This document shows positions 29,322-36,101 of a DNA stretch of 47,242 bases, one piece after another. A program made the translations under genes and the position numbers. The stretch lies in assembly GCA_022865595.1 (NCBI GenBank), contig JALHTE010000119.1, forward strand, positions 1 through 47,242, in the 5' to 3' direction. Source of the DNA: Steroidobacteraceae bacterium. Its GTDB lineage: Bacteria; Pseudomonadota; Gammaproteobacteria; Steroidobacterales; Steroidobacteraceae. The notes under the pieces were generated by a model. That model was not told the DNA's origin, ran no database searches, and saw only the letters and a list, made by a program, of their open reading frames with translations. Position 1 is the stretch's first letter, and the number at the start of each line of letters is the position of its first letter.

Positions 29322-30029
29322 TCACTGCGGAGGAAATACCGCATGACGAAGCAGCGGCCGGTCGAGCCAGGCGGCAGCGGAGGTCGCATCGGCGGCCTCG
29401 AGGGTCGGAATGACCGCCAGCGGTGGGGAGCCGAGGACGATTTCGAGCGTTTCGAGGTTGTCCTCGATCCTGGCGAACCCGGGGTCGATCTGGTTGCCGA
29501 CCCAACCGATGAATCGGCAGCGATCCGAGGCCGAGATGGCCTCGAGCGTGAGCCGGGCATGGTTCAGGCAGCCCAGCCGCAGGCCGACCACGAGGATTAC
29601 TCCGAGGCCCAGGCGCTCGGGCAACTCGCTCAGGAAACCAGCCGGGTGCAGCGGCACGCGCCAGCCGCCGGCGCCCTCGACGATGGCAATTTCGGCGCCG
29701 GCCGTCGCACACGCATACCACTGCTCAAGTTCATCAACCGAAATGGCGGTGCCGGCATCGCGGGCTGCAAGGTGTGGGGCAATGGCGGGTTCGAAGCACA
29801 GCGGGTTCGTCATTTCATATGGCAGTGGAACCGAGCCCGCCGCTGCCAGGGCGAGTGCGTCCTGGTTCCGCAGTCCCTGGGCGCCGGAATCCGCGCCGCT
29901 GGCCACCGGCTTCAGCCCTACGACCCGCTGGCCCTGTTGAACGAGCAGGTGAACCAGGCCGGCCGAGACGATCGTCTTGCCAACGCCGGTGTCGGTGCCG
30001 GTCACAAAGATTCCGCGCGGTTCGGTCAA
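29322..30029 (-). CDS. bioD: Dethiobiotin synthetase
   Basis: Forms the ureido ring of dethiobiotin from DAPA, CO2 and ATP. The P-loop GTDTGVGKT lies close to the N-terminus, with VVGLKPVASG and CFEPAIAPHLAA behind it. I start it at a TTG giving MTEPRGIFVTG, which matches the usual distance to the P-loop. Another TTG at 30059 would add ten residues from the AT-rich spacer. Neither has a clear ribosome site. It lies downstream of bioC but separated by the AT-rich gap, unlike the tightly packed genes before it. Confidence 0.9.
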   Translation of the reverse strand: MTEPRGIFVTGTDTGVGKTIVSAGLVHLLVQQGQRVVGLKPVASGADSGAQGLRNQDALALAAAGSVPLPYEMTNPLCFEPAIAPHLAARDAGTAISVDELEQWYACATAGAEIAIVEGAGGWRVPLHPAGFLSELPERLGLGVILVVGLRLGCLNHARLTLEAISASDRCRFIGWVGNQIDPGFARIEDNLETLEIVLGSPPLAVIPTLEAADATSAAAWLDRPLLRHAVFPPQ

Positions 30030-30141
30030 TTTATCGTCGTGTGACAAAATTAAACTCAAATTATTAAACAGCCGCTCAAAGTGTTTTTAGTAAACATCAC
30101 AAGTAACAATAACTACATAAAATGGACGCCAGTATTTTGAG
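30030..30141. other. AT-rich spacer between bioC and bioD
   Basis: About 31% G+C (28 of 90 bases in 30041-30130), in strong contrast with flanking genes. Loosely inverted ends: GTGTGAC + AAAAT at 30039-30050 versus ATTTTGAGTCAGAC at 30134-30147. This is imperfect, with a 2-nt gap. It could be a small insertion, or carry an internal promoter for bioD. No gene is visible inside. Confidence 0.4.
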
Positions 30142-31047
30142 TCAGACTGCGCTTTCCCGCCGCCCGATCTGGCTGATCGGAACCAGCGTCTCCCCGGCCG
30201 CTCCACGGGCTGCCCGCCGCGGATCTACGACCGGCGCCCACGCGTGGCCGTACACGACCTCGTAGGTCGCTGGCAGCTTGCCGTCGCAACGAAAAGCTTC
30301 GTAAGCCGCGGTCATCCGGGCGAGCGCCGCCTTGCCCGTCAGGCCTCGGGGCCGGCCGGCACTGGCGTTGTGGGCACCGATCGCCTTCAGGTCCAGCATC
30401 AGGTTCCTGACCTCGGCGTAGGTCATCACGTGGCGCTCCACGTCCATCACCGGTTCCGCGAGGCCCGCGCGCAGCAGTGCGTCGCCGAGGTCGTGCATGT
30501 CGATAAAACGGCTGACGTGGACACGGTCGTCGGCCGCAGACCAGGCGTGGCGAAGTTCGTGCAGGGTGTCGGGACCGAAGCTTGCGAATGTAAGCAGACC
30601 ACCCGGCCTCAGGACCCGGCGGCACTCGGCGAACACACGGTCGGGTTCGTCGCACCACTGCAGCATCAGGTTGCTGAAGACCATGTCGAAGCTGGCCGTG
30701 CGGAACGGCAGGCCGGCAGCGTCGGCGCAGACCCGTCGGAACCGGCGCAGCAGTGTCTGTCGCCGCCCCGCCTCCCGCAGCATTGACTCCGCAAGATCCA
30801 GGCCCACCACCAGGCTCTTCGGGTAGCGGCGCTTCAGGGCCAGCGCAGCGTGCCCGGTCCCGGTGCCCAGGTCCAGCACCGCCGCAGGCTCGATCCGCAC
30901 CAGGTCCAGGCGCTCGAGCAGTTCGCCGCGAACGCGCTGCTGGAGTTCGGCCGAGGCATCGTATGTCGTCGCAGCGCGCCCGAACGCCCTGCGGACTGCG
31001 ACCCGCTCGAGCAGGAACCCGTCGTCGCCGGTGCCCTGCGAGTTCAC
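30142..31047 (-). CDS. bioC: Malonyl-ACP O-methyltransferase
   Basis: 301-residue SAM-dependent enzyme that methylates malonyl-ACP to disguise it for fatty acid synthesis, starting pimeloyl formation. SAM motif I VLDLGTGTGHAAL is near residue 60, with VGLDLAESML, LPFRTASFDMVFSNLMLQW and LRPGGLLTFASFGPDTL following. GTG start overlaps the bioH stop as GTGA, which I prefer over the upstream ATG in bioH coding sequence. Confidence 0.92.
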   Translation of the reverse strand: MNSQGTGDDGFLLERVAVRRAFGRAATTYDASAELQQRVRGELLERLDLVRIEPAAVLDLGTGTGHAALALKRRYPKSLVVGLDLAESMLREAGRRQTLLRRFRRVCADAAGLPFRTASFDMVFSNLMLQWCDEPDRVFAECRRVLRPGGLLTFASFGPDTLHELRHAWSAADDRVHVSRFIDMHDLGDALLRAGLAEPVMDVERHVMTYAEVRNLMLDLKAIGAHNASAGRPRGLTGKAALARMTAAYEAFRCDGKLPATYEVVYGHAWAPVVDPRRAARGAAGETLVPISQIGRRESAV

Positions 31048-31847
31048 GCCGGTTCCGCCGTCAGCGGCACGGGATCGCACCTCGAGTGCAGGAAGCCGAG
31101 AACCTCGTCCAGCACCTGGCGTCCGTGCGACAGGAAAGGCGCGTGCCCGCCATGGGCAATCTCGACGAAATCTGCAGTCGGCAGCGCCGAGGCCAGTGCG
31201 CGTCCTGCAGCGGCGGGCGTCAGCCGGTCGCGTTGCCCGGCGATGACCAGCGCCGGCAGCGCGATGCCGGGGAGAATGTGGCGCAGGTCAACCGTACGCA
31301 GTATCTCGAGGCCCGCGGCCAGTGCGCGCGGGTCGGGCGGGCCATGGGCGTCGAGGTTCCGCCTGAGCAGGCGCAGCGTATCGAGCGCGCGCTCGTCGCC
31401 GCGTGCCTGCAGTGCGAGGAAGTTCTGCACCGTGCCGCGATGGTCGTCCGCAAGGCCTTGCGCAAATTCATCGAGGACCGTGGCGTCCATGCCGTGCGGC
31501 CAGTCACCGCCTGCGACGAATCTTGGCGTGGTCGCCAACAGCACCATTGCGCTTGCGCGTTGCGGTTCCTGCCGTGCGAGCTCGAGCGCAATCATTCCGC
31601 CCAGCGACCAGCCGACCAGCACCGCGCCCCGGGGCACGATGTGGCCCACGGCGCGCGCGAGATTCGCCAGGCCCGCGAGACCAGGCGCCCAGGGGCTGTG
31701 CCCATGGCCGGGCAGGTCCACCAGGTGCAGACGCGCGTGCAGCGCCAGTTCTTCCAGCCACGGACCCCACATTCCGCCATGCAGCGCCCAGCCGTGCAGC
31801 AGCACCAGGTCGGGACCCTGTCCGCGTACCTCGACGTGCAGGCTCAT
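31044..31847 (-). CDS. bioH: Pimeloyl-ACP methyl ester carboxylesterase
   Basis: 267-residue alpha/beta hydrolase that removes the methyl group when the pimeloyl chain is complete. The nucleophile Ser81 is in GWSLGG (E. coli Ser82). LLHGWALHGGMWG forms the oxyanion region, Asp lies in GQRDRLTP and His in AHGGHAPFLSH. It overlaps bioF by 4 bp (ATGA) and bioC by 4 bp. Confidence 0.92.
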   Translation of the reverse strand: MSLHVEVRGQGPDLVLLHGWALHGGMWGPWLEELALHARLHLVDLPGHGHSPWAPGLAGLANLARAVGHIVPRGAVLVGWSLGGMIALELARQEPQRASAMVLLATTPRFVAGGDWPHGMDATVLDEFAQGLADDHRGTVQNFLALQARGDERALDTLRLLRRNLDAHGPPDPRALAAGLEILRTVDLRHILPGIALPALVIAGQRDRLTPAAAGRALASALPTADFVEIAHGGHAPFLSHGRQVLDEVLGFLHSRCDPVPLTAEPA

Positions 31848-33028
31848 GAGAGCAGCCCGCGCCCGCGCAGTTCGGAAAGGGACGCCAGCAGGTGCTCCAG
31901 GTCCGAGTCGGTGTGCGCCGCGGAAAACGTGATCCGCAACCGGGAGGTACCGGCCGGCACGGTCGGTGGTCTGATCGCCGGGACAAAGATGCCGGAGTCG
32001 CGCAAGGCTGCACTGGCGTCGAGCGCCGCGGACTCGCTGCCGAGCAGCAACGGCTGGATCGGCGATACCGAAGACGCCAGGCGCAGGCCCAGCCCGGCTG
32101 CCTCGGCACGGAACCGCGCGGCGTGCGCCAGCACGGCTGCGCGTCGCCAGGGTTCGTCCTGCATCACCCGCAGCGCGGCGCGAGTTGCCGCGGCGATCGC
32201 CGGCGGCAGGGCCGTCGTGTAGATGTACTCGCGCGCACCCTGGGCCAGCGTCTCGACCAGTTCCGTCGAGCCTGCGACGAACGCGCCGAATGTCCCCACG
32301 GCCTTGCCGAGCGTGCACATCAGCACCGGCACCTCGTCGCTGCCAAGGCCGGCGAACTCGACGCTGCCACGCCCGTGTTCACCCAGCACGCCGAAGCCAT
32401 GCGCGTCATCCACGAACAGGGTCGCGCCGTGATTGCTGCAGGCGGCCGCAAGACTGCCGAGCGGGGCCACGTCGCCGTCCATGCTGAACACGCCGTCGGT
32501 CGCGACCAGCGCCCGGCCCTTGCGCGGTGCCGTGAGGCGCCCTCGCAGCGCGTCGGCGTCGCGATGCGGATAGCGGCGCAGCTGCGCGCCGCTCGCGAGT
32601 CCCGCGTCGATCAGCGAAGCGTGGTTGAGGCGGTCCTCGTGCACCACGCCACCACGACCGGCCAGCGCCCGGACCACGGCCAGGTTCGCCATGTAGCCCG
32701 TCGAGAAGAGCAGCGCCCGGGGTCGCGCGGTGAATTCGGCCAGTTCCTCTTCCAGCGCGTGATGTTCGCGGGTGTGGCCGCTCAACAGGTGCGAGGCGCC
32801 GCTGCCGACACCCCAGCGGCGCGCGGCATCGACGAGCGCCTCCACCACGGCCGGGTGATCCGCGAGGCCCAGGTAGTCGTTGCTGCAGAACGCCAGGTAT
32901 TCGCGGTCGCCGACCAGCAGCCGCGTGGAGCCCGCAGCCCGCGATTCGACGATGGAGCGGCTGCGCCCGCGCCCGGCTGCGCGCAGCTGCTCGAGACCGG
33001 CGGCGAGTTCTGCGTCGAGTGCCCGCAT
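31844..33028 (-). CDS. bioF: 8-amino-7-oxononanoate synthase
   Basis: 394-residue PLP enzyme condensing pimeloyl-ACP with alanine. The PLP-binding Lys242 lies in MCTLGKAVG. VDDAHGFGVLGEHGRG and the substrate-binding FCSNDYLGL segment are present. It is 9 bp after bioB and overlaps bioH by 4 bp. Confidence 0.94.
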   Translation of the reverse strand: MRALDAELAAGLEQLRAAGRGRSRSIVESRAAGSTRLLVGDREYLAFCSNDYLGLADHPAVVEALVDAARRWGVGSGASHLLSGHTREHHALEEELAEFTARPRALLFSTGYMANLAVVRALAGRGGVVHEDRLNHASLIDAGLASGAQLRRYPHRDADALRGRLTAPRKGRALVATDGVFSMDGDVAPLGSLAAACSNHGATLFVDDAHGFGVLGEHGRGSVEFAGLGSDEVPVLMCTLGKAVGTFGAFVAGSTELVETLAQGAREYIYTTALPPAIAAATRAALRVMQDEPWRRAAVLAHAARFRAEAAGLGLRLASSVSPIQPLLLGSESAALDASAALRDSGIFVPAIRPPTVPAGTSRLRITFSAAHTDSDLEHLLASLSELRGRGLLS

Positions 33029-33037
33029 GGGCGCGGC

Positions 33038-34033
33038 TCAGGCGGCCGGGGTCGTGTCCGCGGCCGTCTCCCGCGTCAGGCCGAGGCGGGCGAATAGTTC
33101 GTCGTCGCGATTCCTGCCCGGGTTCGGCGTAGTCAGCAGGCGCTCGCCGTAGAAGATCGAATTGGCGCCCGCGAGGAAGCAAAGTGCCTGCACCTCGTCG
33201 CTCATTTCAGTGCGACCGGCGGACAGGCGCACGTAGGAACGTGGCATCAACAGCCTGGCGGTCGCGACGGTGCGCACCAGGTCCAGAGGGTCGAGCGGCG
33301 GCAGGCCGTCGAGCGGCGTGCCCTTGACCTGGACCAGCTGGTTGATCGGCACGCTCTCCGGGTGCGCCGGAAGCGTGGCGAGCGTGTGCAGCAACTGCAC
33401 CCGGTCGAGCTCGGACTCACCCATTCCAAGGATGCCGCCGCAGCAGACCTTGAGGCCGGCGTCGCGTACCGCCCCCAGCGTGTCGAGCCGGTCCTGGTAG
33501 GTGCGGGTGGTGATGATCTCGCCGTAGAACGCCTCGGAGGTGTCCAGGTTGTGGTTGTAGTAGTCGAGTCCGGCGTCCTTCAGCTCGCGCGCCTGCCCGG
33601 GCGACAGCATGCCGAGCGTCGCGCAGGTCTCGAGACCGAGCGCATTTACTGCGCGGACCATGTCCTTCACCTGCTCGAGCTGCTTCGGCTTGGGGCTGCG
33701 GTAGGCGGCGCCCATGCAGAAGCGGGTTGCGCCGCCGGCCCGGGCGGCTTCGGCTGCGGCGACCACCGCTGCGACGTCGAGCACCTCGTCGCGCTCGAGG
33801 CCCGTGTCGTGCCGCACGCTCTGCGGGCAGTAGGCGCAGTCCTCGGGGCAGGCGCCGGTCTTGACCGACAGCAGCGTGCTCACCTGAACACGGTTGGGAT
33901 CAAACGCTAGCCGGTGCACGCGCTGCGCATGGTAGAGCAAGTCATTGATTGGCAGGGCATTCAGCGCGCGCGCCTCGTCCAGTGTCCAGTTGGTGCGGAC
34001 TTCGCCCAGGCGGTCCAGGTCCAGGGATGGCAT
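33038..34033 (-). CDS. bioB: Biotin synthase
   Basis: 331-residue radical SAM enzyme inserting sulfur into dethiobiotin. The cluster motif C62-x3-C66-x2-C69 (CPEDCAYC) is intact, and YYNHNLDTS and the C-terminal residues of the [2Fe-2S] site region ([19 protein letters not shown]) are present. Start at [12 protein letters not shown] with a weak AGGA ribosome site. Predicted promoter and BirA operator lie upstream, so this is the regulated first gene of bioBFHCD. Confidence 0.95.
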
Positions 34034-34116
34034 CGAGAATCCTGCTGTTCGGGGTGGAAATTCGGGCTGCGCGCCGGGTCTCCACGGTGGAATCTGGCCG
34101 GCGACGGTCGCCCGGC

Positions 34117-34146
34117 AGTATTCAGAGCCCGGCCGGCGGCTGTCAA
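34117..34146 (-). promoter_or_regulatory. Predicted bioB promoter
   Basis: Minus-strand consensus -35 TTGACA (34146-34141), an 18-nt spacer, then AATACT (34122-34117; four of six match). It would give a leader of about 75-80 nt before the bioB ATG. The -35 box lies in one arm of the BirA-type operator, so repressor binding would block polymerase. Confidence 0.55.
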
Positions 34147-34172
34147 CCAATGATGCCCAGATCAGTTGACAG
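34140..34172. promoter_or_regulatory. Candidate BirA biotin operator between bioB and comF
   Basis: Perfect inverted repeat CTGTCAAC (34140-34147) and GTTGACAG (34165-34172) with a 17-nt spacer. Written as 9-nt arms this is xTGTCAACC-N15-xGTTGACAx, close in sequence and exact in spacing to the known BirA site TTGTAAACC-N14/15-GGTTTACAA. It overlaps the predicted bioB -35 box and the proposed comF start codon. Confidence 0.65.
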
Positions 34173-34887
34173 GTTCGTGGACTCGCTCGGCGGGCTGCTT
34201 CTCCCGCCGCGCTGTGTCCTGTGCGGCGGGCCCGGCCAGCGTCCGTGCCTGGACCTGTGCGGGGACTGCGAGGCTTCGTTGCCCGATTCGCCGGCGTGGC
34301 ATCTGCCGGCACGACCCGAGGCAAAGGTCCCGGACCTGCCCCGGATCGATCGCTGCTATGCCCGCTACACCTACGGATTCCCGGTGGATCACCTGGTTCA
34401 CTCGCTGAAGTACCGCGGGCAGCTTGCGACCGGCCGCGTGCTCGGCGCGCTGCTCGCGGACGGTGTGAAGGCACTCGGGCTGCATCTCGACGTGGACTGG
34501 CTGCTGCCGGTACCGTTGCATCCGGGTCGTCACGCCGAGCGCGGCTTCAACCAGGCCGCCGAGATCGCACGCTGGACGGGCCGGGCGCTGCGGCGACCAG
34601 TAATGCTGGCCGGGCTTTCCCGCACCCGCGATACTCGACCGCAGGTAGGCCTGGGGCCGGCAGAGCGGCACGCGAACATCCAGGGTGCCTTTCGTGCGAC
34701 GGCCCGCGTGCGAGGCTGCCGCATCGTAGTCGTCGATGACGTGATTACGACTGGCAGCACCGTTGCCGCTGCGGCCGCCACGGTCCGCGAGGCTGGTGCG
34801 GCGACCGTAGATGTCTGGTGCATCGCGCGAGCAGATGCGATCGAGCGGGTACACTGGCAACCCCGGATGGAGATGGACAAGGCATGA
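34150..34887 (+). CDS. comF: ComF family phosphoribosyltransferase-like protein
   Basis: About 245 residues. N-terminal zinc-finger-like cysteines (CVLCGG and CGDC) are followed by a PRTase domain with the PRPP loop [13 protein letters not shown]. ComF proteins take part in DNA uptake and transformation; E. coli GntX is related. Start uncertain: ATG at 34150 or 34153, or GTG at 34177 (giving [13 protein letters not shown] with a CAGG site), which would clear the operator. It overlaps nhaA by 4 bp. Divergent from bioB, as in many gammaproteobacteria. Confidence 0.87.
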
Positions 34888-36101
34888 ACCACGACCAGGC
34901 GAGCGTCGGCAACCCCATGACTGCGCTGCGGGAATTCCTGAAGCTCGAATCGGCCAGCGGCATCCTGCTGGTGGTGGCCGGCGCGCTGGCCATGGTGGCG
35001 GCCAACACACCGATGGCCGATTGGTACGAGACGCTGCTCGCCACGCACTTCAGCGTGCAGTTCGGCGAGTTCGCGCTCGACAAGCCGCTGGTCGTCTGGG
35101 TCAATGACCTGTTGATGGCGGTCTTCTTCCTGCTCGTGGGCCTCGAGATCAAGCGCGAGGTCGTGACGGGAGAACTGTCGGACGCCTCGCGAATAGCGCT
35201 GCCCGCGGTCGCAGCGCTCGGCGGCATGGTCGTGCCGGCAGGCATCTATGCAGCCATCAACTGGCACGACCCGGTAGGCATCTCGGGCTGGGCGATTCCT
35301 TCGGCCACCGACATCGCCTTTGCGCTGGGCGTGCTGTCGCTGTTCGGCGAGCGAGTACCGCTGGGGCTCAAGGTCTTCCTGATGACACTCGCGGTGCTCG
35401 ACGACCTCGGCGCCATCGTGATCATCGCGCTGTTCTATACCAACGACCTCTCGATCACGGCACTGATGTTCGCCGGTCTCACGGTTGCGGTCCTGTTCGC
35501 ATTCAACAGGCTAGGCGTGCGCCGCATAGCGCCGTACGTGCTGGTGGGCTCGGTGCTGTGGCTGTGCGTGCTCAAGTCGGGTGTGCATGCCACGCTGGCA
35601 GGCGTCGTGACCGCGCTGTTCATACCCGCGCGCGATGAAGCCGATCCCGAGAATCCGCCGCTCAACAGGCTCGAGCATTCGCTGCATCCGTGGGTGGCGT
35701 TCGGCATCCTGCCGCTGTTCGCCTTCTCGAATGCCGGCGTGAATCTCGAGGGCCTCGGCCTCAGCGACCTGCTGCATCCGATCCCGCTGGGAATCATGCT
35801 GGGACTGCTGCTCGGCAAGCAGCTCGGTGTGTTCGGGTTCGCCTGGGCGGCCGTCAAGCTCGGGATTGCGCGGTTGCCGACAGGAGTGGAAATGAAGCAG
35901 GTGTACGGCGCGGCCGCGCTGTGCGGCATCGGGTTTACGATGAGCCTGTTCATCGGCATGCTCGCCTTCGAGAATGCCGGTGGCGCCGGCGACATGCAGA
36001 ACGACCGCCTTGGAATACTGGTCGGCTCGCTGATCTCCGCGGTGATGGGTTACCTGGTGCTGAACTTCGTCCTGCCGAAAGACCGCAGCAGCGACGCGTG
36101 A
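34884..36101 (+). CDS. nhaA: Na+/H+ antiporter NhaA
   Basis: 405-residue inner-membrane antiporter expelling sodium in exchange for protons. ATDIAFALGVLSLFGERVP and LAVLDDLGAIVIIALFY include the ion-binding Asp pair (LDDLGA). FLLVGLEIKREVV is typical of the family. About 11-12 helices. ATG overlaps the comF stop (ATGA), so translation is likely coupled. The stop codon lies within a terminator hairpin. Confidence 0.94.
   Translation: MNHDQASVGNPMTALREFLKLESASGILLVVAGALAMVAANTPMADWYETLLATHFSVQFGEFALDKPLVVWVNDLLMAVFFLLVGLEIKREVVTGELSDASRIALPAVAALGGMVVPAGIYAAINWHDPVGISGWAIPSATDIAFALGVLSLFGERVPLGLKVFLMTLAVLDDLGAIVIIALFYTNDLSITALMFAGLTVAVLFAFNRLGVRRIAPYVLVGSVLWLCVLKSGVHATLAGVVTALFIPARDEADPENPPLNRLEHSLHPWVAFGILPLFAFSNAGVNLEGLGLSDLLHPIPLGIMLGLLLGKQLGVFGFAWAAVKLGIARLPTGVEMKQVYGAAALCGIGFTMSLFIGMLAFENAGGAGDMQNDRLGILVGSLISAVMGYLVLNFVLPKDRSSDA

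Follow-up and report, generated by a model that had tools for sequence, protein, structure and literature searches.

A 33-base inverted repeat at positions 34140-34172 of the window, the whole stretch of 47,242 nucleotides of Steroidobacteraceae DNA that was analysed, almost certainly constitutes, to judge from sequence comparison, the switch through which biotin represses the operon for its own synthesis, bioBFHCD. Taken as a whole, and with high confidence, the repeat is read here as a site that would be bound by a dimer of BirA, a bifunctional protein acting as both biotin ligase and repressor, through which biotin would repress bioBFHCD and through which the divergent gene comF would probably be occluded as well. 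The conservation of the site, the helix-turn-helix (HTH) of the genome's own BirA and the loss of the site in relatives whose BirA lacks this domain together point to an ordinary BirA operator of bioBFHCD. The initial annotation had proposed a BirA-type operator from the letters alone, and both the HTH_11 domain in the genome's own BirA and the presence of the site upstream of bioB in relatives bear this out. The operator is a further case of the known BirA operators, in a new genome.

The operator and the bioB promoter

The palindrome CTGTCAACCAATGATGCCCAGATCAGTTGACAG occupies exactly 34140-34172 and consists of two perfect arms of 8 bp with 17 bases between them. In the 9-N15-9 notation used for BirA sites it reads CTGTCAACC-N15-aGTTGACAG, a feature without strand whose half-sites are of the form TTGTnAACC / GGTTnACAA at a spacing of N14-16; the N15 found here is that of published sites, as the initial annotation had maintained of the arms and their spacing. 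Sites were scored with a matrix drawn from delta-proteobacterial BirA sites (PMC545781, Table 1) and one E. coli/consensus copy, and since only published sites went into it, the test does not depend on the sequences to which it was applied. The palindrome scores 24.0 on this matrix, against 16.8 for the best shuffle and 14.5 for the 99.9th percentile of the null, and it is matched once in the window and in none of 100 shuffles. Across the whole 3.09-Mb assembly, with up to three mismatches allowed, there are two further matches, each with three mismatches and with matrix scores of 15.7 and 10.4, which leaves 34140-34172 as the sole good site of this kind in the genome. The higher-scoring of the two (G000:C311:40699, score 15.7) was set aside: long frames are open on both strands there, and about as many such matches are expected by chance in 3 Mb, as estimated from shuffles.

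The half-site on the bioB side (34140-34148, minus strand) contains TTGACA (34146-34141), which doubles as the -35 element of bioB and is followed, after a spacer of 18 bases, by the -10 element AATACT (34122-34117, minus strand). This is the sole promoter-like site in 33950-34300, and shuffles yielded none. The earlier claim that the palindrome lies over the bioB -35 extends well beyond this genome, with TTGACA present on the bioB-side arm in 85 of 85 distinct operators and a -10 element 16-18 bases away. Among the seven loci of the same genus, the -10 element (AGTATTC/GAATACT, invariant in 7/7) and the two arms are the main conserved blocks between the genes. The operator thus stands at the promoter of biotin synthesis genes, all on the minus strand and all above their NCBIfam cut-offs: bioB, encoding biotin synthase (33038-34033, TIGR00433), bioF (31844-33028, TIGR00858), bioH (31044-31856, TIGR01738, matching residues 166-404 of the open frame 31044-32318, so that its start is approximate), bioC (30142-31080, TIGR02072) and bioD (29322-30059, TIGR00347). 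The closest named matches of bioB come from Povalibacter and Steroidobacter.

Most gammaproteobacterial relatives have a site upstream of bioB: a score of at least 14 is reached in 111 of 146 locus records, compared with 0.17% of dinucleotide shuffles. These records include places fetched twice and reduce to 87 distinct operators, and the palindrome is thus kept in relatives, as the BirA reading had predicted. Could some other regulator bind the palindrome instead, or could a promoter-like repeat have arisen there by chance? The TTGACA of one arm is a consensus -35, so that half of the conservation would come from the promoter alone. Such an explanation is nevertheless very improbable, given that conservation extends to the second arm and the N14-16 spacing, that both match published BirA sites and disappear along with the BirA HTH, and that alphaproteobacterial bioB loci (64-68% identity) have no such site by the published-site matrix. 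The siteless alphaproteobacterial loci fit the published loss of the DNA-binding domain from alphaproteobacterial BirA (PMC5343134).

The reach of the BirA operator within its own genome seems limited. The bioA and birA loci were also scanned and hold no site, so only part of the biotin pathway would be controlled. The gene bioA lies on another contig (L146, G000:C21:2845-4128) and, with no BirA site in the fetched 1.5-kb flanks, may stand outside biotin control.

The repressor and the fate of the two arms

The biotin ligase of the genome (G000:C28:11001-12008) combines an N-terminal HTH_11 domain (E 5e-9) with BPL_LplA_LipB and BPL_C in one protein, and hence carries the N-terminal HTH on which the initial annotation had made its reading depend. 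Among relatives with a readable bioB upstream region, those with an HTH-bearing BirA have a site scoring at least 14 in 31 of 36 cases and at least 10.8, the 99th percentile of shuffles, in 35 of 36; the HTH-less relatives have none (0/4; Fisher p 0.0014 and 5e-5 at the two thresholds). In relatives the operator therefore precedes bio genes and is missing from genomes whose BirA has no HTH, although such genomes number only four and, with G037 and G052 in one genus, represent few independent losses. Absence of the HTH was judged by open frame, tblastn and Pfam (G037, G038, G047 and also G016). One genome, G036, counts against the BirA-operator reading, for it encodes an HTH-like BirA and yet has no site before its relocated bioB. 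Finally, tblastn matches to the HTH at L210, L211 and L223 were discarded: they lie at least some 500 bases upstream of the ligase, and Pfam finds no HTH in the ligases themselves; we take them to come from the adjacent upstream gene, part of which was included in poorly trimmed queries.

It is in the HTH-less genomes that the two arms part company. Three of the four (G037, G038 and G052) have kept the bioB promoter TTGACA-N18-AATACT and lost the comF-side arm, which amounts to a natural experiment separating promoter from operator. The same asymmetry runs through the 85 distinct operators, whose bioB-side TGTCAAC is invariant and whose comF-side arm (here aGTTGACAG, 34164-34172, plus strand) varies at several positions. 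On the simplest reading, the bioB-side arm would be under constraint from RNA polymerase as well as BirA, and the comF-side arm under constraint from BirA. In a genome of the same family, G016 (L204, G016:C1:8700-10200), bioB is not detectable, the ligase has no HTH and comF adjoins a frame that looks BioC-like by eye; TTGACA on the bioB-side arm and AATACT are kept there and the second arm is gone, an apparent relic of the operator. Another locus of this family (L189, in G028) has likewise kept the bioB-side arm and lost its partner; G028 yielded no biotin ligase with an HTH, and its main ligase was not confidently identified. These loci offer a comparative case in which the promoter accounts for the retention of one arm and the repressor for that of the other, and in which the two are separated once the repressor loses its DNA-binding domain.

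From these comparisons we infer both the binding of BirA and the response to biotin, and propose the following course of events. When biotin is plentiful and the carboxylase acceptor protein is already modified, BirA would keep its biotinyl-5'-AMP, dimerise and bind both half-sites at 34140-34172. Because the bioB-side half-site contains the bioB -35 element, the bound protein would exclude RNA polymerase from the bioB promoter, and bioBFHCD would be repressed. Since the divergent comF has its first codons inside the site, transcription of comF would probably be occluded or blocked by the bound dimer too.

The start of comF lies within the operator

The divergent gene comF (34150-34887, plus strand) encodes a ComF/GntX-type phosphoribosyltransferase-like protein, which matched TIGR00201 and NF008616 below their curated cut-offs; its best NCBIfam match is GntX (NF008616). 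Two ATG codons in the comF frame, at 34150 and 34153, fall within the palindrome, and the comF-side half-site encodes Val-Asp-Arg in this frame. The operator therefore overlaps the start region of comF, and the initial annotation, which had seen the palindrome cover this start, is supported by all seven same-genus loci, each of which offers comF an in-frame ATG or GTG at operator position +10 or +13.

The initial annotation had also offered an alternative start at GTG 34177, in frame and 5 bases beyond the palindrome, in which case the overlap would be an annotation artefact. A start codon occupies the matching +37 position in some relatives (TTG in G001, ATG in G006), and neither comF start has a good Shine-Dalgarno sequence. 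The +37 start is missing, however, in G004, G005 and G007, whereas the +10/+13 start is present throughout the genus, which speaks against GTG 34177. Moreover, several other genomes (e.g., L039, L046, L060, L069, L070, L076 and L103) have an in-frame comF start before the conserved CxxC motif nowhere but inside the operator. A true start at GTG 34177 is accordingly unlikely, and we proceed with a comF start inside the operator.

The overlap is not unusual, since it is widespread across the gammaproteobacterial class. A strict operator pattern applied to 370 sampled genomes of the class returned 42 sites in 41 genomes, with an ATG directly before the comF-side GTT in 32 of them; the binomial probability of 2e-30 for this embedded ATG ignores relatedness and means only that the figure is far from chance. 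Distinct loci with a recognisable bioB or comF number 27, of which 22 have comF and 17 have the embedded ATG in the comF frame, giving comF proteins that begin MVY, MVN or MVD. In many gammaproteobacterial families the comF-side arm thus takes the form ATG-GTT-(T/A/G)AC and supplies the first codons of comF. In one family (f52; L237 and L238, two genomes) the operator-internal ATG GTT AAC start belongs instead to bioA, and the one that was tested lies above the TIGR00508 cut-off. A purine-rich stretch precedes the ATG in 29 of the 32 cases; shuffled spacers already give 68%, which makes it weak evidence. Overall, many gammaproteobacteria have the comF start codon (that of bioA in one family) inside the operator, and often the putative ribosome-binding site as well. 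The literature searched, with subscription papers mostly outside its scope, held no description of a comF start inside a BirA operator, which is weak evidence of novelty; the main text of PMC5343134 makes no mention of comF.

Does BirA control comF?

Whether BirA co-represses comF is, on the sequence comparisons made here, an evenly balanced matter. Away from bioB, 14 comF genes were found, and none of the 13 that could be scanned has a full site; selection on the operator thus appears to come from bioB, for which the site appears to be maintained. It is possible, with a likelihood only just below an even chance, that the operator serves bioB alone, that comF is transcribed from elsewhere or by read-through, and that the overlap at its start reflects a compact intergenic region. 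The absence of a full site from the 13 comF genes away from bioB favours this, as does the persistence of the operator beside bioB where an adjoining comF was not detected. In G016, where bioB is not detectable, the ligase is HTH-less and a BioC-like frame adjoins comF, comF has been kept, but of the dyad only the bioB-side arm survives, together with the -10 element. Further, a consensus comF promoter was sought in 33950-34300 and none was recognised. Yet the placement of the comF start within the operator is constant throughout the genus and turns up again in many families; in one family (two genomes) its place is taken by bioA, a genuine biotin gene; and a dimer bound across the first codons should impede transcription from any comF promoter that lies upstream.

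Co-repression of comF, were it to occur, could reach further. The gene nhaA (34884-36101, plus strand; named in the initial annotation) overlaps the stop of comF by 4 bases and is possibly co-transcribed with it, so that any consequence of the operator for nhaA would be one step further removed. More broadly, and tentatively, with the balance tipping somewhat against it, the ComF/GntX gene whose start the operator supplies in many gammaproteobacterial families would belong to the biotin regulon, a membership so far overlooked, and would be shut down along with bioBFHCD when biotin is plentiful, the enterobacterial bioH-gntX pair being a possible remnant of this arrangement. The ComF/GntX family is known for DNA uptake and use. 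The layout, with the start inside the operator, makes it testable whether this family is tied to biotin status.

Comparison with known systems

The E. coli operator bioO consists of two inverted 9-bp half-sites with 15 bases between them. It lies between the divergent bioA and bioBFCD, and both transcripts are repressed (PMC5438404). The operator described here resembles it in its inverted 9-bp half-sites 15 bases apart, in its divergent genes and in a ligase/repressor with an N-terminal HTH. It differs in that its half-site is cTGTcAACC rather than TTGTAAACC, that the divergent gene is comF rather than bioA, with its start codon within the operator, and that the bioB-side arm serves as the -35 element. 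The delta-proteobacterial BirA sites, with the consensus TTGTAAACC-[N14/15]-GGTTTACAA (PMC545781, Table 1), are similar in their half-sites (TTGTcAACC / GGTTgACAg) and in their spacing of N14 or N15; they have other downstream partner genes, and the paper describes no comF.

That a ComF/GntX gene can neighbour bioH has already been described: comFC (gntX) lies next to bioH in enterobacteria and elsewhere (PMC5438404, citing Akatsuka and coworkers), and there, as at the present locus, a ComF/GntX-family gene is read divergently from a biotin gene. Unlike the freestanding bioH of E. coli, which is not under BirA control, bioH is here part of the operon, and the shared region holds a BirA operator. 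The divergence of gntX and bioH in E. coli may be a remnant of the comF-bioBFHCD layout.
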